From positions 1 through 20,481 of IMG/VR virus record IMGVR_UViG_3300035698_010911: a DNA stretch of 20,481 bases; one strand, given 5' to 3'. The notes under the pieces were generated by a model. It was not told where the DNA came from. It ran no database searches and worked only from the letters and a program-made list of their open reading frames with translations. Source of the DNA: a virus. A program made the translations under genes and the position numbers. Within the stretch, counting starts at the first letter, position 1, and each line of letters begins with the position of its first letter. Shown piece after piece: positions 5,231 to 20,367 of the stretch.

Positions 5231-7705
5231 ATGGCGTACAAAAAGAAGCCAGCAGGAAAAATCGAAAAGTCTCTATTTGCTAAGTCCAATGCAGTAGTAG
5301 ACTGGACGAAAGCTATAGAAGCCGCCAAGTTTAGAGAGAAGGACTGGCGGAAGATGGCTAAAGATGTTGTCTCTCTATATGAGTCCTCCCTGGGAGAAGA
5401 GACTCCCTTCAATATACTTTTCTCCAACACAGAGCTTTTAGCTCCTGCTTTGTATGGTCGATTACCTGTTCCTGTAGCTAGTCGCCGGTTTAAAGATGAA
5501 GATCCATTGGGCAAAGTTGTAAGTCAAGTAGCTCAGAGAACCTTAGCCTATCTAGTAGACGACAACAACCCAGAGTATTCTTCCTTCGACGATATAATGA
5601 AGAAAGCTGTTCTTGAAGGTTTGCTAGCTGGTAGAGGACTAACACAGGTCAAGTACGATACATTCGATAATGATTATGAGACAGTCTGCAACAAAGAAAT
5701 ACCTTGGGATCGTTTCTGCCACGGCTATGGGAAAGTGTGGTCAGATGTTCCCTGGATAGCAATCGAACACTACATGACTTTCGAAGAGCTTACAAAGCTT
5801 CTAGGCAGCGAAGAGCTTGCAGGGATGGTAGAGTTAACTGCTACTTCCGAAGCTATGAAGGAAGAGACCTTAACAAAAATGTCTTCTGGCAATGAAGACG
5901 ATACTGATTTAGGCCATGTATTTGAGATCTGGGATAAAGCCTCAAAGCAAGTTATCTTCATGAGCCCAGATAGTCCAGAGATATTACAGACAATTGATGA
6001 TCCTCTAGAGTTAACCGGTTTCTTTTCGGTGCCAAAGCCTATGGGATTCTACGACAAGGTTTCCGGCGTAACGCCTCAATGCCTATATGCCGCATACAAA
6101 CCACAAGCAGAGGAATTGAACAAAGTAACCACCCGTATACGTATGGTTATGAGTGCCTTGAAGGTTAGAGGCTTCTATGATGGAAGTGTAGAGAAGCTTG
6201 GTGAATTGATGAGCTCACCTGATAACACTTTACTTGCAGCAGAGAATGTAGCTCAATTTGAAGGTAAAGGGCTTGACAAACTTATCTGGTTCGCACCTTT
6301 AACTGAATTGATTACTGTCCTCCAACAGCTTTACTTGCAGCGGCAACAGATAAAAGATGTTATTTTTGAGATAACTGGTCTAAGCGATTTGATGCGGGGT
6401 GATACTGCTGCTTCAGAAACCTTCGGTGCTCAAGGGCTGAAAAGTCAGTGGGGTTCGATGAGACTGAAGAAGATGCAGCGGGAGGTTATGCGGTATTCCA
6501 GAGACCTTTTGAGGATTATGGCTGAAATAGCTTTAACAAAGTTTAGCAGAAAAACTCTACAAGGTATGACAGGGCTGCAACTTCCGACTGAAGAGCAGAA
6601 AGCTAAAGCCTACGAGTTAATGCAACAAATTGCTCAAGCGGCAGAAGCTGGTCAAGAAATACCTGCACAGATTGAAGAGAAAGCAGCCGAGCTTGATAAA
6701 ATACTCAAACTACCAAGCTGGGAATCAATAATAGATATTATGCAGGACAACCTGCTTAGAAATTATAAAGTAGATATTGAAACAAACTCTACGATTGAAC
6801 TTGATGCAGCTGAGGATAAGAAAGATATAGCTGAGTTCTTGAATGCTTTCGCTCAGTTCATGAATGGTGTAGCGCCTATGATTGCCTCTGGGACGTTGCC
6901 TTTTGCAGTAGCTCAGGAAGTCTTAATAACTGTTGTTAGACGGTTTAGATTCGGAGAAGAGCTTGAAGATCAGCTGAAGAAGATGCAACCTCCACAAGGC
7001 AATCCAGAAGAACAGCAAGCTCAAATAGAAGAACAGGCAAAGCAGTTGCAACAGGCTCAAGAGGAATTTGCTCAGCAACAGCAGCAAGCTCAAGCAGAGA
7101 TGCAAAAGGTTCAGGAGCAGCTCCAAGGCGAACAGCAGAAACTTCAAATGGATACACAAAGCCTGAAGATAGATATGCAAGCAGGGAAAGCTGAGTTGGC
7201 TGCGTCGAAGACACTTATGATAAAAGAGATGAGTCTGGCACAGAAAGAGTTCGATCTCAAGCAAAGCTCCACGGAGCAGATGCATGGACAAAGAAAAGAG
7301 CATGAAGCTTTAATGTCTGCCAATGATGCAAGCTTAGCCGAAGGGCAGGGAGATGAGCTAGATCTAATTGCTGAGACAATAACAGAGGGCTTGGCTAGTG
7401 CAGGTGCAGTTCTCTCTCAAGGTTTAATAGCTTCTGCCAACACCTCAAAACGTGTAGAGAAGTTGTCTGAGGGTTCTTGGAGATCTGTAGTTGATGAGCC
7501 TTTAAGCGAAAAAGATCTGTTACCTATAAAGGTAGAAGAGCAGAGAGAAGACTCTCCTACAATAAACTTGTTGAAGGATGGATTTAAGGAGATGGAGCAG
7601 ATAATAGCAGCTGGTATAGCTGAAGCAGCAAACACCTCTAAAGGTGTAAGGAAGACAGAAGAAGGTGTTTGGGAGACTTTCCCAGTTGATGTAGACGAAG
7701 TTTAA
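5231..7705 (+). CDS. Portal protein, P22-like, with long coiled-coil C-terminus
   Basis: Forms the dodecameric ring at one head vertex through which DNA passes. The start at 5231 has AAGGAAG upstream, 4 bases after the terL stop. The N-terminal part (EKDWRKMAKDVVSLYES ... FNILFSNTELLAPALYGRLPVP) and the core with GLSDLMRGDTAASETFGAQG (about residues 382-401) match the P22-like portal type. At 824 residues it is longer than P22 portal (about 725). A Gln/Glu-rich coiled coil spans about 578-693, comparable to the barrel-like extension of long podoviral portals. After it, two related blocks of about 45 residues (711-757 and 777-823) each end in A-A-N-T-S-K-x-V followed by an E-G-x-W motif, an apparent internal duplication. 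It directly follows terL, as expected. Confidence 0.93.
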   Translation: MAYKKKPAGKIEKSLFAKSNAVVDWTKAIEAAKFREKDWRKMAKDVVSLYESSLGEETPFNILFSNTELLAPALYGRLPVPVASRRFKDEDPLGKVVSQVAQRTLAYLVDDNNPEYSSFDDIMKKAVLEGLLAGRGLTQVKYDTFDNDYETVCNKEIPWDRFCHGYGKVWSDVPWIAIEHYMTFEELTKLLGSEELAGMVELTATSEAMKEETLTKMSSGNEDDTDLGHVFEIWDKASKQVIFMSPDSPEILQTIDDPLELTGFFSVPKPMGFYDKVSGVTPQCLYAAYKPQAEELNKVTTRIRMVMSALKVRGFYDGSVEKLGELMSSPDNTLLAAENVAQFEGKGLDKLIWFAPLTELITVLQQLYLQRQQIKDVIFEITGLSDLMRGDTAASETFGAQGLKSQWGSMRLKKMQREVMRYSRDLLRIMAEIALTKFSRKTLQGMTGLQLPTEEQKAKAYELMQQIAQAAEAGQEIPAQIEEKAAELDKILKLPSWESIIDIMQDNLLRNYKVDIETNSTIELDAAEDKKDIAEFLNAFAQFMNGVAPMIASGTLPFAVAQEVLITVVRRFRFGEELEDQLKKMQPPQGNPEEQQAQIEEQAKQLQQAQEEFAQQQQQAQAEMQKVQEQLQGEQQKLQMDTQSLKIDMQAGKAELAASKTLMIKEMSLAQKEFDLKQSSTEQMHGQRKEHEALMSANDASLAEGQGDELDLIAETITEGLASAGAVLSQGLIASANTSKRVEKLSEGSWRSVVDEPLSEKDLLPIKVEEQREDSPTINLLKDGFKEMEQIIAAGIAEAANTSKGVRKTEEGVWETFPVDVDEV

Positions 7706-8144: not shown

Positions 8145-8561
8145 ATGATTGTCTGCGTGGAGATACTACGAGAGGATGGGCCTACAGCTGAAAGTGGAGG
8201 CTGGGCCTTGGGTGATGTGGTGCGTGTGTTTGAGCCACACCCCAATCTACTCGCTGATAGAAGGTGCAATCTAAAGAGAAAAGCGTATATTTTCGTAGAG
8301 GGCTTCCCTGATGGGCAGTTTGAGAATGTATGCTCTTGGGTGGAAGCTTACGAAGTAGATCCAATAAGTGGTGAGATCACCAGAAAGCGTGAGTGGTCAT
8401 TAGACTTCAGTACTGTAAACCCTGTCAATGCAGCTAAACTCTTAGCGCCTCCGCATGTTATGACCTATCAGTGGGCAGATATTCAAAGTAAATTGGTCAG
8501 GAAGAAAGCCAACAACGTAAAGAAAACCTTAACAGATCTAGGACTCTTTAAAAAGACATGA
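8145..8561 (+). CDS. Hypothetical protein in head module, 138 aa
   Basis: The ATG at 8145 follows the previous stop by 2 bases and has no clear Shine-Dalgarno, so translation is probably coupled. It ends in an ATGA overlap with the next gene. The N-terminal half looks beta-rich (MIVCVEILREDGP ... WALGDVVRVFEPHPNL, then YIFVEGFPDG), and the C-terminal third is a basic helical stretch (KLVRKKANNVKKTLTDLGLFKK). Three cysteines (4, 41 and 63) are present without a metal-binding spacing. I do not recognise a family. Tight coupling between a structural protein and a beta-helix surface protein suggests a virion component or an assembly helper for the latter. Confidence 0.72.
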   Translation: MIVCVEILREDGPTAESGGWALGDVVRVFEPHPNLLADRRCNLKRKAYIFVEGFPDGQFENVCSWVEAYEVDPISGEITRKREWSLDFSTVNPVNAAKLLAPPHVMTYQWADIQSKLVRKKANNVKKTLTDLGLFKKT

Positions 8562-10594
8562 CAGCCTACAGATATGTACATACATCAGCTGACGGCACGG
8601 GCGATGGCAGCACTCGCGCCCTGACGACTGGAACCGGCGCATATGCCTCCCTGTCTTCCTGGGAGTCAAGTGAACAGGTGACTTTAACGGAAGATCACAT
8701 CGTTAGGTGTGCTGGCTCTACAGCTGATGGAACTGCTGTGTCTATATCCGGATGGACGCCAGGAGTTTATTCGATACATGTCAGAGGTGATAGGGGCGAG
8801 GATGATTCTGCGGGTGGCGGAGATGATGGTACAGGATTTGGTAATGATGGATTCTATGACGGTAACTTTTCCTTCAGTACAAGCCATTATAGATTAGATC
8901 AGTCTGCAGCTTTCACCACGCTTACGACCAGCGAAGAAAATGTAAAAATAGACGGATTGCAGCTATATTGCTCAAAGGCTTCTTCTGGTGCTGCGGCTGT
9001 AACTATAAGCCAGACTAACTCAGAGCTGGTCAATTGCAGGATAGGCTGCACATCAGGTGACGGAGTGGTTGCTAGTGGCGGTTCATTTAGATCTACGCCA
9101 TTACAGATATCTAAAAATATCATTTATAAAGCTGGCGCTGTAGGAATGGAATTGGCTCGAAATGTAGACGCGCCAGACGCAACAACGAACATCTACAACA
9201 ACACTTTCTACGATTGCGTTACTGCATTTAGTATACTCAGTGATAATACAGGTGACACATGGAATGTTAAGAATAACGTTGTATTTAACTGTACAAACGA
9301 ATTCTCAGGTCTCGATAACGATGTAAGCTCCACAATAAACTCTACCCATAATGCTGGAGAAGGATCAGCTCCAACAGGACACAATAGCAACTGGATAACT
9401 TTAAGCGCTACACTTACAGATGATTTAACCGATCCTGAAAATGCTAGCGGTATTTCTGCTGATGATTTAAGGCCGGTCAGTGGTGGGGGAATAGATAACG
9501 AAGGCATTGGGAGCGCGACAGACAGCAATGCGCCCACTACTGATATTTTGGGCAATGCCAAGTCGACCACTGCTCCAAGCCTGGGGGCTTTTGAGGTTGC
9601 AGCAGCAGGGGGTCAGACTCTAACCCAAACTAGATTAGACAATACTTCTTCTTTCTTTACACCAGTTGTAGTTCAATCAGCACAGCAACTTGTCCAAACT
9701 CGACTGGATAATACTTCTGCTTTCTTCAACCCTACTGTAACTCAATCGGCTCAGCAGCTAACACAGACAAGAGTTGAAAACACTTCAACTTTCTTTACAC
9801 CTGTTGTAGCATTCGCTAGACAGACTTTAGAGCCAACTAGACTTGAAAATACTTCAACCTTCTTCACACCTGTGGTTTCTACTTCTTTGGTGTTGGGACA
9901 GACTAGGCTCGATAATACTTCAGTATTCTTTAACCCAACTGTAGCTCAAGCTGCTCAGCAACTTGTACAAAGTAGACTAGACAATACATCTGCTTTCTTT
10001 AATCCAGTTGTAACTTTTGCTGATCAAATACTAGAAGCGAGTCGACTAGAGAACGTTTCAGTATTCTACTCTCCTACTGTAAGTATAGGCCAGGTTTTAG
10101 AAGCGACTCGAATAGAGAACACTTCTGTCTTCTTCAATCCTACTGTAACTACACAGCTTCAATCTCTCTTCCCTGCAAGGCTTGAAAATAGTTCAACTTT
10201 CTTTACACCTGTAGTGACTGGTGGGCTACGTCTATCAAATACTGGTCGAGGGGGTAGTGGAGGCGGAGCTGTTCAGAATATAAAAAATGCAAGAGCCTTG
10301 AGCAAACTGCTGGATAAAATAGGTATGTCTTCAGAAGAGACTGGCCTTAAACTATTAGAGACTGCTATAGAAGAAACTCCCACTCAAGAGTTTATAGATA
10401 GTCTGCAGCAACTAGCTTCTGAAAACGACAGCTTATTGTTGCGTATGGACTTTCTCAAACTCTTGCAGCAAAGCTTAAACAACCTTAATTTGCTGGAAGA
10501 TGCCTTGCTAAAGTATAGTGAGAGATTGGCAGTAGATGCTAAGATGTTCGAAGCTGAGCAAGATGCTGCTATTATTCTACTTTTAATGGATTAA
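8558..10594 (+). CDS. Large beta-helix protein with nine TRLDNTS-type repeats (candidate head fibre)
   Basis: 678 residues in three parts. Residues 1-345 have the Asn/Gly/Ser-rich short-strand pattern of a right-handed parallel beta-helix (for example NIYNNTFYDCV and NVKNNVVFNC), with an opening like pectate-lyase-type phage proteins (MTAYRYVHTSADGTGDGSTR). Residues 355-558 are nine repeats of 22-23 residues, consensus L-x-x-T-R-L-D/E-N-T-S-x-F-F-x-P-x-V. A Gly-rich hinge (about 562-575) leads to an all-helical end (580-678). Translation starts in an ATGA overlap with the preceding gene. The protein sits between portal and scaffold, not with the tail genes, which suggests a head-attached fibre or capsid surface protein, perhaps binding glycans. 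A displaced tail spike is the alternative. No catalytic site was identified. Confidence 0.82.
   Translation: MTAYRYVHTSADGTGDGSTRALTTGTGAYASLSSWESSEQVTLTEDHIVRCAGSTADGTAVSISGWTPGVYSIHVRGDRGEDDSAGGGDDGTGFGNDGFYDGNFSFSTSHYRLDQSAAFTTLTTSEENVKIDGLQLYCSKASSGAAAVTISQTNSELVNCRIGCTSGDGVVASGGSFRSTPLQISKNIIYKAGAVGMELARNVDAPDATTNIYNNTFYDCVTAFSILSDNTGDTWNVKNNVVFNCTNEFSGLDNDVSSTINSTHNAGEGSAPTGHNSNWITLSATLTDDLTDPENASGISADDLRPVSGGGIDNEGIGSATDSNAPTTDILGNAKSTTAPSLGAFEVAAAGGQTLTQTRLDNTSSFFTPVVVQSAQQLVQTRLDNTSAFFNPTVTQSAQQLTQTRVENTSTFFTPVVAFARQTLEPTRLENTSTFFTPVVSTSLVLGQTRLDNTSVFFNPTVAQAAQQLVQSRLDNTSAFFNPVVTFADQILEASRLENVSVFYSPTVSIGQVLEATRIENTSVFFNPTVTTQLQSLFPARLENSSTFFTPVVTGGLRLSNTGRGGSGGGAVQNIKNARALSKLLDKIGMSSEETGLKLLETAIEETPTQEFIDSLQQLASENDSLLLRMDFLKLLQQSLNNLNLLEDALLKYSERLAVDAKMFEAEQDAAIILLLMD
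9620..10231 (+). repeat. Coding tandem array of nine 66-69-bp repeats
   Basis: Repeat starts at 9620, 9689, 9758, 9827, 9893, 9962, 10031, 10097 and 10166; six units are 69 bp and three are 66 bp, all in frame. Every unit encodes the R-[LIV]-[DE]-N core and an F-[FY]-x-P element. DNA copies have diverged while the protein core is kept, so the array is old and under selection. Confidence 0.93.
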
Positions 10595-10597
10595 ATT

Positions 10598-11011
10598 ATG
10601 CCACTCTATGACTTTAAATGTAATGCTTGCAGCAAAAAGTTAGAGCGTTTTGTACCTCTTTCAAGATTCGATGACCCTCAATACTGTGAAAATTGTTTAG
10701 CAGAGATGGAGCGTCTTATAAGTGCTCCTATGATTGTATCAGATTATAAAGTGTATAGCTGTCCAGTTTCAGGTAAGCCTGTTGAGGGTAGAGTAGCCCA
10801 TAGAGAGAACTTAAAAAGAAATGGTTGTCGCCTTTTAGAGACTGGTGAGAGAGAGCAAAGTAGAGCAGATGAGCAAGTGAAAGAACGTAGGCTAGAGCAA
10901 AGTTTAGAGGCTACCGCAGAAAGACTATACGAACAGATGCCTAGCAAGAATCGTGAACAGCTGGCTACTGAACTTCAACAGGGTGCTACAGTAGAAATTG
11001 CCCGTACTTAA
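10598..11011 (+). CDS. FmdB-type zinc-ribbon protein
   Basis: The N-terminus MPLYDFKCNACSKKLE carries C8-x2-C11 and, 18 residues on, C30-x2-C33: the four-cysteine zinc ribbon of the FmdB/CxxC regulatory-type family. A second motif, YKVYSCPVSGKP ... AHRENLKRNGCRLLETGE (about residues 51-83, with C55 and C77), is the block that, from memory, follows the ribbon in many phage versions. The C-terminal 50 residues are charged and helical. The ATG at 10598 follows the previous stop by 3 bases with only a weak Shine-Dalgarno. It lies directly before the scaffold gene. A role in head assembly or as a small nucleic-acid-binding factor is possible; in phages its function is not established. Confidence 0.85.
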   Translation: MPLYDFKCNACSKKLERFVPLSRFDDPQYCENCLAEMERLISAPMIVSDYKVYSCPVSGKPVEGRVAHRENLKRNGCRLLETGEREQSRADEQVKERRLEQSLEATAERLYEQMPSKNREQLATELQQGATVEIART

Positions 11012-14248: not shown

Positions 14249-14962
14249 ATGAACCTTCTCGAAATCTTACAGAAATTTGCAGCTAGAGTAGGCATCAAAG
14301 TTCCTACAGTTGGCATTACATCAACAGATGCCTCCACCAGACAGTTAGTTGGCTTGCTGGATGAACTTCTAGAAGACTTATCTTTTACAAGGCAGCAGTG
14401 GACAGCTCAGACAAGAGAAGTCACCCATACCTCCTTGAATGCGTTGGATCAAGGCACTGTAGAGTCTATAGCTCCTGGGCACATTTGGGCTATACCAAAC
14501 ACTTTCTTCGATAGAACCTCAAACTTAAAGATAGTTGGGCCAATGAGCCCTTCGGAGTGGCAGCAAGCTCAAGCAGTAGCATACAGTTCAGCCTACCATA
14601 TTTTTAGATTTTGGCAGAATAACTTCTACATCTATCCCTTAATTGCAGCAGGCCACGAAATTGCATTCGAGTATACTTCAAAGTATTTGGTCTATGACGC
14701 AGATACTCTAGCCTTCAAACAGTACTTTACAAAAGACACTGATACGATTGCGCTAGAGTCAGCAGTTATCTTGAGGGGTCTGCGCTATCTGTGGAGGAAA
14801 GAGAAAGGCTTGCCTTATGCAGAAGAGTTCATGGCTTATGAAAGTATAGTTAGATCCCTGGCTACCCACGATGGCGTTAAAGCAAACATAGATATGTCTG
14901 GTGGTTCTTTGAGTAGAGTTCCAGGTATATTTGTCCCAGACAGCGACTGGCCTCTATCATGA
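14249..14962 (+). CDS. Head-tail adaptor protein
   Basis: 237 residues. Adaptor rings sit under the portal and join it to the tail nozzle. The N-terminus is helical (LLEILQKFAARVGIK, then RQLVGLLDELLEDLSFTRQQWTAQ), and a beta insertion with GHIWAIPNTFFDRTSNLKIVGPMSPSEWQQAQAV (about residues 77-110) follows. A long helical end contains ALESAVILRGLRYLWRKEKGLPYAEEFMAYE. This matches the adaptor type seen after capsid genes in podoviruses such as SU10-like and related phages (from memory). The start at 14249 lacks a clear Shine-Dalgarno and lies 23 bases after the previous stop. It ends in an ATGA overlap with the nozzle gene, which fits equal-number connector parts. Confidence 0.82.
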   Translation: MNLLEILQKFAARVGIKVPTVGITSTDASTRQLVGLLDELLEDLSFTRQQWTAQTREVTHTSLNALDQGTVESIAPGHIWAIPNTFFDRTSNLKIVGPMSPSEWQQAQAVAYSSAYHIFRFWQNNFYIYPLIAAGHEIAFEYTSKYLVYDADTLAFKQYFTKDTDTIALESAVILRGLRYLWRKEKGLPYAEEFMAYESIVRSLATHDGVKANIDMSGGSLSRVPGIFVPDSDWPLS

Positions 14963-16545
14963 GACAGCCTCAAGCAGCTGCTCAGCGTCAGCATAGAAGC
15001 TTCACACAATCTGTGCCAGCTCCTACAGGAGGATTAAATGCTGTAGACCCAATAGCTGCTATGCCGGACACAGATGCAATTGTGTTAGATAATTGGTGGC
15101 CTTCAACAGTTGATGTTTCCATAAGAAAAGGTTGGGCAGTTTTCGCCACTCTGCCAACTGATGATCCAGCAGGTCAGCGTCATGATATACGTTCGATAAT
15201 GAGTTATAAGCATCCAGATGGTACAACGGTTGGCTTTGTAGCAGATCAAACTGGCATCTATGATGTGTCGGCAGGTGGAGCAGTTAGCTCTATAGACTCC
15301 GCAGCTACAAATGGAGAATGGCAGTTTACAAATATCTCTACAGCGGGTGGTAGTTTTCTATGGTGTTGCAATGGAGTCGATAAGGCTAGATACTTTAATG
15401 GTACAAGCTGGACTGTTCTAGATGGTGTTTCCTCTCCTGCCTTAACAGGTATTACCTCAACAGATATTACTTCAGTAACATTGTTTAAAACTAGACTTAT
15501 GTTCCTGTTGAAGGATTCTTTAAGCTTCGCTTTCTTGCCAGTCAACTCTGTAGCTGGAGCTGCAAGTGTCTTTCCTTTAGGGGCTATCTTTAAACTAGGC
15601 GGTCACTTAGTATTGTTGGATACTTGGTCAGTAGACGGTGGTGAAGGCATCGACGACTATATGATTTTCATGACTTCTGAAGGAGAGCTAGCTGTATATA
15701 AAGGTACAGATCCAGCGGTAGCAGCAAATTGGGCACTTGTTGGAGTTTACTTTGTGGGGAGGCCACTGTCTAAAAGATCTTCTGTAAAGGTAGGTGGTGA
15801 TCTAGTTCTGCTGACAGTTCAAGGCTTGTATCCAATATCGAAAGCGCTTGGCTTTGCAACAACAGATGAGACAACAGCTATAAGCTACAAGATTCAAACA
15901 CTTTTCTTGCGATATGCAGAAGCCGGTCTGGATCTCTATGGATGGGAAATTCAGCACTTCCCTGAAGCTACAATGCTCGTAGTCAATGCACCTTTTCGAG
16001 CAGATGCTTCTTTGAACTTTTTTTACTCTTATCAGTTTGTAATGAACACAACTAATTTAAGTTGGGCTAGATTTACAAACATGCCTTCAGAAGCCTGGGG
16101 AGTTCACAATGATAGACTCTATTTTGCTGCGCACAATGTAATCTTTCAGGCTTGGGTAGGGAGCACAGATGGGGGAGCCAAGATTAGATCTAGAGGTCAG
16201 ACAGCCTTTACCTTTTTGAGAAAGCCCTCTGTTATAAAGCATATAAAACTCGTACGTGCCTTAATGCAGGCTTTCGGAGATGTATCGTTTAAGGTAGGTG
16301 TTGAGTCAGATTTCACTGTGGATGTACGAACAGAGGCTTTACCTCCAACTCTATCATCCCAATCTGTATTTGACTCTGCTAAGTGGGATCAAGCTTCCTG
16401 GTCAGGATCTGGTATATCTACCACCTGGAATGCTGTTTCAAATAACCCAGGTATTTGGCTGTCTCTTGTGCTTGAAGGGAGTACAGATGCCGCTGTCAAT
16501 TGGTACACAACTGGCTATATCTATGAAACAGGTACCTATCTATAA
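14959..16545 (+). CDS. Tail nozzle/stopper-like virion protein
   Basis: 528 residues. The beginning PAPTGGLNAVDPIAAMPDTDAIVLDNWWPSTVDVSIRKGWAVFATLP (about residues 20-66) is a signature I recognise from large phage connector or nozzle proteins. The remainder is beta-rich with repeated blade-like units (GTTVGFVADQTGIYDV, GSFLWCCNGVDKARYFNGTSWT, LFKTRLMFLLKD, GELAVYKGTDPA, GDLVLLTVQGLYPISKA), suggesting a beta-propeller followed by a C-terminal beta-sandwich. It follows the adaptor by ATGA overlap and precedes the next gene by TAATG overlap. This fits the lower tail tube that holds DNA in the head and passes it to the host envelope. The exact structural name remains an inference. Confidence 0.83.
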   Translation: MRQPQAAAQRQHRSFTQSVPAPTGGLNAVDPIAAMPDTDAIVLDNWWPSTVDVSIRKGWAVFATLPTDDPAGQRHDIRSIMSYKHPDGTTVGFVADQTGIYDVSAGGAVSSIDSAATNGEWQFTNISTAGGSFLWCCNGVDKARYFNGTSWTVLDGVSSPALTGITSTDITSVTLFKTRLMFLLKDSLSFAFLPVNSVAGAASVFPLGAIFKLGGHLVLLDTWSVDGGEGIDDYMIFMTSEGELAVYKGTDPAVAANWALVGVYFVGRPLSKRSSVKVGGDLVLLTVQGLYPISKALGFATTDETTAISYKIQTLFLRYAEAGLDLYGWEIQHFPEATMLVVNAPFRADASLNFFYSYQFVMNTTNLSWARFTNMPSEAWGVHNDRLYFAAHNVIFQAWVGSTDGGAKIRSRGQTAFTFLRKPSVIKHIKLVRALMQAFGDVSFKVGVESDFTVDVRTEALPPTLSSQSVFDSAKWDQASWSGSGISTTWNAVSNNPGIWLSLVLEGSTDAAVNWYTTGYIYETGTYL

Positions 16546-17036
16546 TGTTAACTAGATCACCAGACATGGTAAAATTTATTGATGAGGCTCTTCAAGGCAA
16601 CACACAGGCTATATCGATGCTGTGGAGTATATTCGATATACTCCATTTTTATGATGATTTAATAGATCAGGATAGAGAAATAGATAGCATCTTTATACAT
16701 TCAATTATGTGGAAACTTTTGATAGACTTACCATTGAACCCTTTCTACCATGCAAATGTATCTTCTATATCAACTGCCTTAACTATCTGTATACTTGAAT
16801 GGAGAGCTGCTACAAAAATAGAGCAGAATACCAACGGCATAAATGAAAACGGCATAAATGAAGTAAATGCCTCCAGCCTAAGGGTTGCTTTCTACACTCG
16901 CTCCAGTTATCATAACTTAATTACACACTGCGCTCTGCTTATAGGTGGTGTTACTTGGGCGGCTAAGGTTGCGGAAGAAGTTAGTCATATAGCTTATACT
17001 GAATCCTTCGATGAATACTTAAAAGAGCTTACATAG
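16545..17036 (+). CDS. Helical phage protein with DDLID motif, 163 aa
   Basis: The ATG shares one base with the previous stop (TAATG). The protein is almost entirely helical. The clearest motif is HFYDDLIDQDREID at residues 34-47, an aspartate-rich run like the metal-binding DDxxD of isoprenoid synthases. It also shows the pattern of a family I recall from phage tail regions (DDL-x-D-x-D near the N-terminus, then a conserved LPLNPFYHANVSS, here at about 65-77). At 163 residues it is half the size of a true terpenoid synthase, and no second Asp-rich motif is seen. So it is probably not an enzyme of that kind, or else a very reduced relative. Residues 97-106 contain a two-copy NGINE repeat. Possible roles are a tail assembly or ejection chaperone; function unknown. 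Confidence 0.75.
   Translation: MLTRSPDMVKFIDEALQGNTQAISMLWSIFDILHFYDDLIDQDREIDSIFIHSIMWKLLIDLPLNPFYHANVSSISTALTICILEWRAATKIEQNTNGINENGINEVNASSLRVAFYTRSSYHNLITHCALLIGGVTWAAKVAEEVSHIAYTESFDEYLKELT
16833..16862 (+). repeat. 15-bp in-frame tandem duplication
   Basis: AACGGCATAAATGAA occurs twice with no gap, encoding N-G-I-N-E twice in a loop region of the 163-residue protein. Exact identity suggests a recent duplication. Confidence 0.88.
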
Positions 17037-17040
17037 TGAT

Positions 17041-18378
17041 ATGGGTAAACCAGACTTTAGCATTAACGCAGCTCTCAGTGGGAAGCCTATACCATTAACT
17101 GGTATCAACAAGAAAGTAGACAAAATTACAGGAGCTTTGAATCCAGTGGGACTATGTCCAAAAACACCAAAAGCACCAAAAGTACTTGACCCTAGAATAG
17201 CTATTGAAGCTCAGCTTGCAGCTGATATAACAGCAGCTGAGAAAGGAACAGCCTTAAGTCGCTTTGATACAGCTGGCCCTCAAGGGTCTCAGGTTTGGAG
17301 TATAAATCCTGATACAGGTCGATATACTCAAACTCAACAGCTCACTCCTAACCTCCAGAATGCTGAAACTATAGCTCAGGAAAATACTCTAGATAAACAG
17401 TTAGGCGAGAAACTTCTCTTGAATAGAGCACAAGAGGCTTTAAGTCAAAAAGCCCCTACAGCTCCTGGTCAATCTACTGCTGATTTTTGGAGACAGCAAA
17501 CTGATAAGACTTTAGCTGACCCAGAGATGCAAGCCAAAACTGCTTTAGAAGCAGTTGATCGCTCACAGAATGTTCATGGAAATGCACTGAACAGATTAGA
17601 TGCAGGTCTAGAGGCAGACTTCAACTATGATGCTTTAGGGGCGGCTCCTACAGCTGATGAATCCACAAGACAATCTGTAGCTGACTCTCTATACAATCAA
17701 TCTACTTCTAGGCTTGACCCTCGCTATAGCCAGCAAGCTAATGATCTATCGACACAATTAGCAGCTCAAGGTATTACTCAGGGATCTGCTGCCTATGATA
17801 GAGAGATGGACAACTTCATGCGAGATAGAAATGATGCTTACTCTTCTGCGTCAAACATAGCCAATACAGAGTCTATAGATGCTATGGAGAAACTGTATGG
17901 CATGGCACTGGAAGGAAGACAGCAGGGTGTTGGAGAAGCAAACTACTTAAGAGCGAATCCTGTCAATGAAGCCTTAGCAACCTCTGAGCTAGCTACTGGA
18001 AGTACAGAGAGAGCTACGGATCTTTTAGGTGCACAGGTTGGTAGACAGTTGTCTGTTCCAGGTATAGCAAGTGCAAATTTTGGCGTAGATAAAACAGCCT
18101 ATGATACTCAGACAGAGGCTAGACAAAACGTACTCAATGAGTTCTTGCAAGTTGCTGGTATAAATTCAGGTGGCGCCTCCAACGTAGGTGCAGCAGCTGC
18201 TGCAGGAGCCAGTGGGCAAAGTCAACTACAATCCACAGGGCAGGTAGATGCTTCCGGTGCCTACAATACTCTAACCGATGCAAACCAAAGACAGTTTGAA
18301 GCAAAGACAGGAACCTACAACAACAAACTTCAAGGTGGAGCTACACTAGGGGCAGCAGCTATAGCCGCTTTTGCCTAA
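17041..18378 (+). CDS. Internal virion/DNA-ejection protein (annotated in relatives as tail fibre-domain protein)
   Basis: 445 residues, rich in Ala, Gln, Asn, Ser and Thr. The N-terminal GSQVWSINPDTGRYTQTQQLTPNLQN (about residues 82-107) and the central SLYNQSTSRLDPRYSQQANDLSTQLAAQGITQGSAAYDREMDNFMRDRNDAYSSASNIA (about 217-275) match a widely distributed phage protein that I know as a tail fibre-domain or DNA-transfer protein. Long helices with polar faces, a low-complexity Gly/Ala stretch (about 378-398) and an Ala-rich hydrophobic end (LGAAAIAAFA) fit proteins stored in the virion and ejected ahead of DNA. The start at 17041 has a weak ribosome site. The stop overlaps the next start (TAATG). 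The ejection role is inferred from composition and position. Confidence 0.78.
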   Translation: MGKPDFSINAALSGKPIPLTGINKKVDKITGALNPVGLCPKTPKAPKVLDPRIAIEAQLAADITAAEKGTALSRFDTAGPQGSQVWSINPDTGRYTQTQQLTPNLQNAETIAQENTLDKQLGEKLLLNRAQEALSQKAPTAPGQSTADFWRQQTDKTLADPEMQAKTALEAVDRSQNVHGNALNRLDAGLEADFNYDALGAAPTADESTRQSVADSLYNQSTSRLDPRYSQQANDLSTQLAAQGITQGSAAYDREMDNFMRDRNDAYSSASNIANTESIDAMEKLYGMALEGRQQGVGEANYLRANPVNEALATSELATGSTERATDLLGAQVGRQLSVPGIASANFGVDKTAYDTQTEARQNVLNEFLQVAGINSGGASNVGAAAAAGASGQSQLQSTGQVDASGAYNTLTDANQRQFEAKTGTYNNKLQGGATLGAAAIAAFA

Positions 18379-19124
18379 TGAATTTTCAAGAATACAACAA
18401 TCCTGTACTTTTCTTCTCTGGTGGCAAGGACTCTATGGCAGTCCTTTTTAAACTGCAGAGAGAGCTAAAGGATATATATGTCGTTTGGGCACATACAGAG
18501 TCTGTGTTTCCAGAAACTTTAAAGATGGTTGAGCTGGCTAAAAAGATGTGCCCTAACTGGATTGAAGTTACCACCGATAAAAAAGATAATTGGGAAGCAA
18601 AGGGTATGCCTTCTGATTTGGTCTCTTTTCCTTCTTCAGAGCTTGGACAGCTTATGCTGCAACCTTCGAAATCTATAAAACTGCAGCTTTCTTTTGAGTG
18701 CTGTTTATCAAATCTAGTTGCTCCAGCTTTAAAAGTTGCCGAGGCTTTAAACTCTACTTTGCTGATAAAAGGTCAGCGAATGGAAGAGGATATGAAAAGT
18801 ACCTCCAGAACTGGTACAAAAATAGGAAATGCTACAGTTTGGCATCCTATAGAAATGTATACAACTGAGGAAATCTTAGCTTACTTGGAGGAAAAGATGA
18901 ACGAGCTGCCTGAGCATTTTCACTTCTCTCATAGCAGTTTAGATTGTGCAAATTGCACAGCTTATTTGGAAGAAACAGCAGATATCCATCGACATGTAAG
19001 AAGTAAATATCCAGAATTAAATGAAGAGTTTATGTTAAACATACAATTGATAAAGGATGCTGTTTTGAAGCCTTTTCAAACATTAACCGAAAGAGCTGCG
19101 GAGAGAGAAGATGGCAGGCCCTAA
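18378..19124 (+). CDS. PP-loop (PAPS/APS reductase-like) protein with a CC...CxxC iron-sulfur signature
   Basis: 248 residues. The PP-loop SGGKDS at residues 14-19 marks the nucleotide-binding fold of the PAPS/APS reductase superfamily, and HTESVFPET (39-47) follows at the usual distance. Cysteines C108-C109 and C190-x2-C193 give the CC...CxxC arrangement that holds a [4Fe-4S] cluster in assimilatory APS reductases. No cysteine follows C193, so the C-terminal E-C-G-L-H catalytic motif of true sulfonucleotide reductases is missing. It may therefore be a PP-loop ATPase or sulfur-transfer enzyme, as in DndC- or TtcA-like chemistry, rather than a reductase for sulfur assimilation. It overlaps both neighbours (TAATG at the start, 14 bases at the end), so it is made together with the ejection proteins. 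Confidence 0.9.
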   Translation: MNFQEYNNPVLFFSGGKDSMAVLFKLQRELKDIYVVWAHTESVFPETLKMVELAKKMCPNWIEVTTDKKDNWEAKGMPSDLVSFPSSELGQLMLQPSKSIKLQLSFECCLSNLVAPALKVAEALNSTLLIKGQRMEEDMKSTSRTGTKIGNATVWHPIEMYTTEEILAYLEEKMNELPEHFHFSHSSLDCANCTAYLEETADIHRHVRSKYPELNEEFMLNIQLIKDAVLKPFQTLTERAAEREDGRP

Positions 19125-20367
19125 CATACCTACACCTTTTGGCCCTGGGCAATCCAGGATTCAGCAAAGAAGGAGATTGGCTGACGCTATGACAGGTCAA
19201 TCCTTGCAGGGTATAGAAGGTGATCGAACTCCTGGAGCTGCACTTAGCTGGACTCAAGCCCTTGGAAAGATTGCACAAGCCTATGCTGGTCAGAGGTTAC
19301 ATGGGCAAGCTGCCGATCAAGAAAGCCAACTAGCCCAACAACACCAAGAAGGTTTGCAGGCACATTCAGCTGAGTTCAATGAACGCTTGAAGTCTGATCC
19401 TGATGGAGCTATAGCTTTTGCAGGAAGCTCTCCCTTCGAGACTGTTCAGAAGATGGGGCAGGAAGAACAGAAAGCCCGTAGAGCTACAAGAAAGCAAGTA
19501 CAAGATGCAGCTACTGACTCTAGTCTTATAGCAGCTGCTCAACAAGGTAATGGTGCTGTGGACGTGCACTCTTTGCAGGGCAAGACACCTGTAACAACAA
19601 TAGCTCCAGGCAATGTCACTATGAATGCCCAAACAGGTGAGATAACTTCTGGCTTTGGACTATCTCCGAACAACAAGGGAGGATTGGATCAAGTCTCTGC
19701 AACCGGACGTAGACAGCTAAACCAAGCAACCAACGTAACACAGAATGTAAGCAATGCAGGTTTGTTACCTGGACAGAAAGTTGGCTTTGAGACACTAATG
19801 AGAGATGCACAGACTCAAAACACTAAGTCAAGCGAGAGGGCTTCAATGGCTGTAAATACTCTACATGCCTTAGACGCTCTGGAAAAGCTAGCAGACTCTG
19901 ATGGTGGAATATTTGAAGGTACAACTTCTGGAGCAGCAAAATGGATGTCTGGTGTAGCTCAGGCTTTTGGAGTTCCTGTTGGAGCTGAGGTATCAGCAAA
20001 GCTTGGAAACACAGAGACCTACGATGCAACTGTTATTGGTTTGTGGAACTCTATAATAGGTCAGGGAGAAGGAGGTCATAAAGGCGTTGTTAAGGAAGAG
20101 GCTGAGAAGATTATGCAGATGCTTCCGCTAGCCAGACATTCTCCTATGGCACGGAAAGCTATAACTGATATTTTAAGAGATGCTGCACAGAGAAACATAG
20201 ACGATCATATAGAAAGTCATAGCATATATGTAAATGCCCTTATGACTGAAGATATGGGAGAGTATGCTGCACATATGCAAGATATGTTTATTAGGGATTC
20301 TTGGAAATCTTCAGTCCCTCCATCTGCAGAAGACTATCTAAAACAGCTAGACGCTCAGGGAAGATAG
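19111..20367 (+). CDS. Predicted internal virion/ejection protein, 418 aa
   Basis: The ATG at 19111 has GGAGAGAG upstream and lies inside the end of the PP-loop gene. The protein is Gln/Ala/Gly-rich: an N-terminal basic segment (SRIQQRRRLADAMTG, about residues 15-29), a helical stretch with QESQLAQQHQEGLQAHSAEFNERL, a linker around 150-195, and a helical C-terminal half (SERASMAVNTLHALDALEKLAD; KEEAEKIMQMLPLARHSPMARKAITDILRDAAQRN). A glycine-rich loop, GQGEGGHKG, lies at about 315-323. No cysteines or membrane segments are seen. This style, between a DNA-transfer-type protein and a large downstream gene, is typical of podoviral internal core or ejection proteins. It could carry a lytic or membrane-active part, but none is evident. 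Confidence 0.72.
   Translation: MAGPNIPTPFGPGQSRIQQRRRLADAMTGQSLQGIEGDRTPGAALSWTQALGKIAQAYAGQRLHGQAADQESQLAQQHQEGLQAHSAEFNERLKSDPDGAIAFAGSSPFETVQKMGQEEQKARRATRKQVQDAATDSSLIAAAQQGNGAVDVHSLQGKTPVTTIAPGNVTMNAQTGEITSGFGLSPNNKGGLDQVSATGRRQLNQATNVTQNVSNAGLLPGQKVGFETLMRDAQTQNTKSSERASMAVNTLHALDALEKLADSDGGIFEGTTSGAAKWMSGVAQAFGVPVGAEVSAKLGNTETYDATVIGLWNSIIGQGEGGHKGVVKEEAEKIMQMLPLARHSPMARKAITDILRDAAQRNIDDHIESHSIYVNALMTEDMGEYAAHMQDMFIRDSWKSSVPPSAEDYLKQLDAQGR

Follow-up and report, generated by a model that had tools for sequence, protein, structure and literature searches.

The gene at positions 18378..19124 (+ strand) of the viral sequence analyzed here probably encodes an ATP-dependent, [4Fe-4S]-type PP-loop modification enzyme, from a phage-specific family that is predicted to be co-translated with ejection proteins without itself becoming part of the virion. 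The sequence, hereafter the window, is the entire 20,481-base IMG/VR record IMGVR_UViG_3300035698_010911, which is probably a fragment of a phage genome. Given the absence of a catalytic cysteine, the slot of the gene among those for injection proteins and its pairing or fusion with a methyltransferase in some relatives, it probably serves to modify some viral product rather than to feed sulfur metabolism.

An Intact PP-Loop and a Reductase-Like Cysteine Set

The ORF encodes a 248-aa protein of the phrog_424 / PF01507 type and carries what a first-pass annotation had listed, namely SGGKDS, C108-C109, C190-x2-C193 and no later cysteine. SGGKDS (residues 14-19, 18417..18434, +) is an intact ATP-pyrophosphatase PP-loop, and SGGxDS is invariant in the family alignment. 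The first putative Fe-S cysteine pair, C108-C109 (18699..18704, +), is in register with the ECC of APS reductase, and the second, C190-A-N-C193 (18945..18956, +), with its CAPC; C58 is the one cysteine besides these four, and none lies C-terminal to C193. PF01507 (PAPS_reduct) matches the protein with 40.8 bits, above the Pfam cut-off of 22.5, and the best PHROG is phrog_424 (E 4.6e-13). The AlphaFold2 model has a mean pLDDT of 95.2, and its nearest PDB structure is the APS reductase 2goy (TM 0.51/0.56), followed by PAPS reductases and, lower down, by TtuA thiolases; a phmmer search of the protein against the PDB returned chance septin and ribosome-factor matches alone. Both cysteine pairs also align in register with the APS reductase 7lhr in profile alignments. 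Since the pairs keep this register and the nearest fold is that of APS reductase, we infer on good grounds that C108, C109, C190 and C193 hold a [4Fe-4S] cluster.

With CysH, the window protein shares the APS-type CC...CxxC ligand register, found in both profile and multiple alignments, but it has neither the C-terminal catalytic cysteine, nor the degraded PP-loop, nor the R-K after CC. An ordinary CysH is also encoded in four bacterial genomes in which the phage gene is part of a prophage. In three of the four, this CysH has SSLGAED, SSLAAED or SSFGAES at the PP-loop position and CC...CxxC together with ECGLH or ECGIH, and R-K after CC; in the fourth it has ECGLH without the Fe-S cysteines. 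The phage proteins instead display SGGKDS, a CC without R-K (CCLSNL in the window protein vs. CCHIRK in host CysH), DC-x-x-C-T-A-Y, and no GRWWW/ECGLH tail. In the profile comparison proposed in the first-pass annotation, PF01507 matched, the NCBIfam reductase models scored 28.2 bits (cut-off 154) and 22.2 bits (cut-off 235.3), the DndC model also stayed under its cut-off, and no TtcA model was among the NCBIfam matches of the protein. Placement inside an active reductase clade, named there as one outcome that would overturn the interpretation, was not found: in a maximum-likelihood tree, a branch with 98/96 support separates 53 phage proteins from CysH, CysD and DndC. As the outgroups are few and the branches long, we read this tree for the separation of the phage clade only. 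The best reading of these sequences is that the protein is not a sulfonucleotide reductase, having lost the catalytic cysteine and the reductase substrate-binding segments.

A recent acquisition of the gene from a host is not favored, because it groups with phage relatives rather than with host CysH and its GC content (38.6%) is similar to the 36.8% of the neighbor at 16545 and only a little under the 43.1% of the window as a whole.

A Phage Family Without the Catalytic Cysteine

A query of viral contigs with the window protein as single sequence gave zero matches, so that profile searches were necessary. One such scan of IMG/VR gave 353 loci, of which the best 80 were retained, and genome contigs gave 12 full-length relatives. 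Named phages with relatives are the Burkholderia Lessieviruses, the uncultured Manatee Spring phage (MW202711) and Aeromonas phage phiA008. Across 53 sequences, each 21-36% identical to the window protein, 15 alignment columns are invariant, among them SGG, DS, G76, P78, CC, P116, G132, P157, C190 and C193. CC and CxxC are kept in 78/78 non-redundant relatives and ECGLH is found in 0/78; 13 of the 78 have a cysteine beyond CxxC, at scattered positions in the eight cases listed from the first set. This conservation is not an effect of selection during retrieval, since no retrieval pattern contained CC, and all 41 relatives beyond the reach of the CxxC search pattern have CxxC. Judged from these sequences, the missing active-site cysteine pointed out in the first-pass annotation is a trait of the whole family and not peculiar to the window gene.

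One relative lies on a contig binned as Planctomycetaceae (L091, PAQH01000135.1) that bears a Lessievirus-like region, with a PP-loop gene different from that of BcepMigl; it is probably a misbinned phage contig.

A Conserved Slot in the Ejection Gene Block

The gene at 14959..16545 (+) encodes a tail tube B / P22 gp10-like stabilization protein (phrog_5107, E 2.6e-101); syntenic genes are annotated as stabilization or tubular tail B proteins, and the PHROG label "amidase" is probably wrong. It is followed at 16545..17036 (+) by a phrog_21390 protein in a P22 gp14 / RimL-like head-assembly position, identified from gene order alone (phiGT1, Mx8), and at 17041..18378 (+) by a virion/ejection protein in a P22 gp7-like position (phrog_6121, E 5.7e-14), with a hydrophobic, Gly/Ala-rich C terminus. 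Downstream of the PP-loop gene, 19111..20367 (+) encodes an internal virion protein with homologues in 16 other loci, in the slot that a muramidase-bearing ejection protein occupies in relatives; the L010 homologue carries an SLT transglycosylase domain. Two further genes of the structural block drew our attention: 8558-10594 encodes a 678-aa protein with several TRLDNTSxFFxPxV-type repeats and no Pfam match, and 10598-11011 a Zn_ribbon_8 (FmdB-type) protein.

Stop/start overlaps had been noted on both sides of the gene, and both are present. The upstream stop codon (TAA, 18376-18378) shares 1 nt with the start codon (ATG, 18378-18380) in a TAATG at 18376..18380 (+), and the downstream ORF, from 19111, overlaps the last 14 nt of the PP-loop gene. 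Among 53 loci dereplicated at 85% identity, with start codons called mechanically in the same way for both sets, 34/47 upstream junctions are of the -1/-4 type vs. 63/322 other same-strand junctions (odds ratio 10.8, p 1.2e-12). The TAATG overlap suggests translational coupling to the upstream ejection gene.

The place in the ejection gene block, also claimed in the first-pass annotation, is conserved: an upstream gene could be called in 88 loci, and in 82 of them it falls into three virion/ejection groups, being phrog_6121-like in 65 (including the window), a phrog_4287-like "DNA ejection protein" in 10, and the phrog_8003-like Lessievirus virion protein in 7. Downstream, the relatives encode internal virion proteins, several of them with SLT, muramidase or endolysin domains. 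Homologous upstream genes also occur in phages with a plain P22-like order and no PP-loop gene there (phiGT1, Mx8, MW202489 and Mwe-JY13), in which the upstream ejection gene is followed directly by the other internal virion genes; the phiGT1 paper does not mention a PP-loop gene. From this comparison of gene orders, the PP-loop gene is accessory, because related ejection genes exist without it, and is a retained insertion that separates the gp7-like ejection gene from the muramidase-bearing one.

The upstream ejection proteins have a short, hydrophobic, Gly/Ala-rich end (e.g., 18320-18375 of the window), often with an aromatic last residue, across divergent groups; such an end would suit insertion into a membrane as well as a site of modification. 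In phiGT1, a phage without a PP-loop gene at this place, the homologue phiGT1_17 (L211:3902-4930) has a C-terminal peptidase S74 chaperone domain.

The first-pass annotation had also proposed a virion-linked factor, a view that has lost ground: in CsCl-purified virions of the Lessievirus JC1, gp64, gp67, gp68 and gp69 were detected and the PP-loop homologue gp65 was not (PMC9144972). A structural role for the protein is thus disfavored, though non-detection is no proof.

A Recurrent Methyltransferase Partner

In several loci (L039/L040, L060 and L082), the ejection gene and the PP-loop gene are separated by a tightly overlapping gene for a class I SAM methyltransferase. One methyltransferase family accompanies 15 of 79 non-redundant PP-loop lineages, a proportion that is not an unbiased frequency, as 5 of the 15 came from a search with the methyltransferase alone. 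It lies upstream in 8 lineages, downstream in 6 (among them L208, counted with reserve, whose PP-loop protein sits on a very long branch), and is fused to the PP-loop protein in one clade. This clade comprises seven contigs (L168, 4341-5714; L156, L173, L185, L187, L189 and L192) at 69-87% identity, mostly of ~61 kb and Lessievirus-like. The search with the methyltransferase alone, for which we used a three-sequence alignment since a six-sequence alignment was too divergent, found nine loci, with the PP-loop gene adjacent in eight and 4.6 kb away in the ninth. On the PP-loop tree, the presence of the methyltransferase changes 13 times, with at least eight changes forced by well-supported branches, and was therefore gained or lost repeatedly. 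The phrog_424 profile itself has a methyltransferase segment at its N terminus, which suggests that the fusion is present, unremarked, in reference phages. Three other records contain a related methyltransferase elsewhere, and the family was absent from the five named phage records tested. As it accompanies only 15/79 lineages, the PP-loop protein would usually act without a methyltransferase or with one encoded elsewhere.

The methyltransferase model (pLDDT 93.6) is nearest to MitM, RebM/AtmM, TleD and prenyl-diphosphate methyltransferases. The family lacks motif IV, [DNS]PP[YFW], which rules it out as an amino-methylating DNA methylase. In L208, a possible S-adenosylmethionine decarboxylase gene (5233-5985; phrog_3125, E 4.7e-9) adjoins the PP-loop and methyltransferase genes.

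Our search of the open literature, outside which subscription papers lie, turned up no description of the active site lacking across the family, of the coupling or of the methyltransferase fusion; the adjacency and fusion with the methyltransferase are new here.

Possible Function and Alternative Explanations

Several of the claims made at first sight hold together, namely an ATP-type PP-loop protein with an APS-reductase-like set of four cysteines, outside CysH and in an ejection slot; a role as a virion component or in phosphorothioation is not supported. We propose that the SGGKDS site would use ATP to adenylate an acceptor, and that the [4Fe-4S] cluster on the four cysteines would hold or activate a sulfur atom, as in TtuA/TtcA-type thiolases. 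Displacement of the adenylate would then leave the acceptor thiolated or substituted in another way, and some phages would methylate this product. The sulfur would come from the host, since none of 20 phage records, several of them fragments, encodes a cysteine desulfurase (Aminotran_5, DndA-like), for which host housekeeping enzymes could substitute. Because of the specific coupling to the upstream gene, we tentatively take the acceptor to be the ejection protein translated together with the enzyme, or a small molecule that this protein carries, and a low-molecular-weight group would fit the resemblance of the partner to small-molecule methyltransferases. A tRNA or the phage DNA appears a less likely acceptor, and a free small molecule, or else some other acceptor, less likely still. 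An unlikely extension of this proposal is that podoviruses possess a dedicated post-translational module, consisting of a [4Fe-4S] PP-loop enzyme and, optionally, a methyltransferase, which would modify a co-translated ejection protein for its function or survival in the next cell.

Other explanations account for part of these data. An auxiliary metabolic gene for a working APS/PAPS reductase, which would raise sulfate assimilation by the host, as published for the Lessieviruses and assumed for viral cysH, would agree with the PF01507 match, the APS-reductase-like fold and the published annotation as PAPS reductase (PMC9144972, PMC10269572). We consider it very improbable, given a C-terminal catalytic motif in 0/78 lineages, the missing R-K and GRWWW/ECGLH segments, reductase models far under their cut-offs (28 vs. 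154 and 22 vs. 235 bits), and a late, ejection-coupled position that is odd for metabolism. The same protein could instead thiolate nucleic acids in the manner of DndC or TtcA, modifying tRNA, or progeny DNA before packaging, and so protect the genome in the next host; DNA phosphorothioation had been raised in the first-pass annotation. The intact SGGKDS with Fe-S-type cysteines is consistent with this, late expression would suit modification before packaging, and DndC-type sequences branch beside the phage clade in the tree, on long branches. It is nonetheless unlikely, as the DndC model gives the window protein 13 bits (cut-off 290.4), the cysteine spacing differs, the 20 records lack a desulfurase gene, and the partner methyltransferase, without motif IV, has small-molecule methyltransferases as structural neighbors.

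These structural neighbors, with the adjacency and fusion of the methyltransferase, point to another scenario, in which the two enzymes make or tailor a small molecule by adenylation and then methylation and the ejection operon sets the timing only. The matched methyltransferase folds are, however, generic, timing alone leaves the strong and specific coupling to ejection genes unexplained, and no biosynthetic genes were seen nearby except the possible AdoMet decarboxylase in L208, so that we rate this scenario as quite unlikely. The coupling could also reflect a PP-loop protein without catalytic activity that persists because it helps the ejection protein to fold or assemble, and the peptidase S74 chaperone domain fused to phiGT1_17, in a phage without the PP-loop gene, would agree with such a need; but the PP-loop and the cysteines are invariant despite 21-36% identity to the window protein, which argues for catalysis, and the methyltransferase partner recurs, making an inert factor decidedly improbable. 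We thus favor an active modification enzyme that is made together with the ejection proteins.

If the enzyme modifies ejection proteins or another late product, this would be a new step in virion building, for which the methyltransferase fusion provides a concrete two-enzyme system. Surveys treat phage "cysH" genes as auxiliary genes of the sulfur cycle, and among the viral AMGs listed for Baltic sediments cysH occurred at the largest share of stations, 65% (PMC9301287). If this family, with 353 IMG/VR loci in one scan, is among those counted, viral sulfate assimilation may be overestimated, because its members lack the residue needed for reduction.

Comparison With Known Systems

Assimilatory APS reductases (2goy, 7lhr) have the same fold and CC...CxxC ligand register as the window protein; the TM-score between them is about 0.5, and the window protein differs in its intact SGGKDS and in lacking R-K after CC and the GRWWW/ECGLH tail. 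DndC shares the intact SGGKDS and Fe-S-type cysteines, but has only one cysteine where CC stands and, after an insertion, an additional one before CxxC (the DndC-like locus comparison left out L121), and no desulfurase partner was found in the 20 phage records. The [4Fe-4S] tRNA thiolases of the TtuA/TtcA type, of which TtuA is among the structural matches of the model, share the logic of a PP-loop with an Fe-S cluster; their cysteine layout, with a three-cysteine [4Fe-4S] site, is probably different from that of the window protein.

A precedent for protein modification by a PP-loop enzyme of the same operon exists in type IV CBASS, where the QueC-family enzyme Cap9, encoded in a phage-conflict operon, helps to modify a protein (PMC11996544). 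The window protein gives a weak profile match to 9nto; Cap9 belongs to another subfamily with another chemistry, and the analogy extends to protein modification only.

The closest known counterparts are the Lessievirus proteins (BcepIL02 gp67, JC1 gp65, and those of CSP3, DC1 and BcepMigl), published as PAPS reductases and as a sulfate-assimilation moron (PMC9144972, PMC10269572). They are 26-28% identical to the window protein, and their genes lie about 9-13 nt from the upstream gene, whereas that of the window overlaps it. In family, in cysteines, in the lack of a catalytic cysteine, and in their slot between an ejection/virion protein and the internal virion proteins, they are as in the window.
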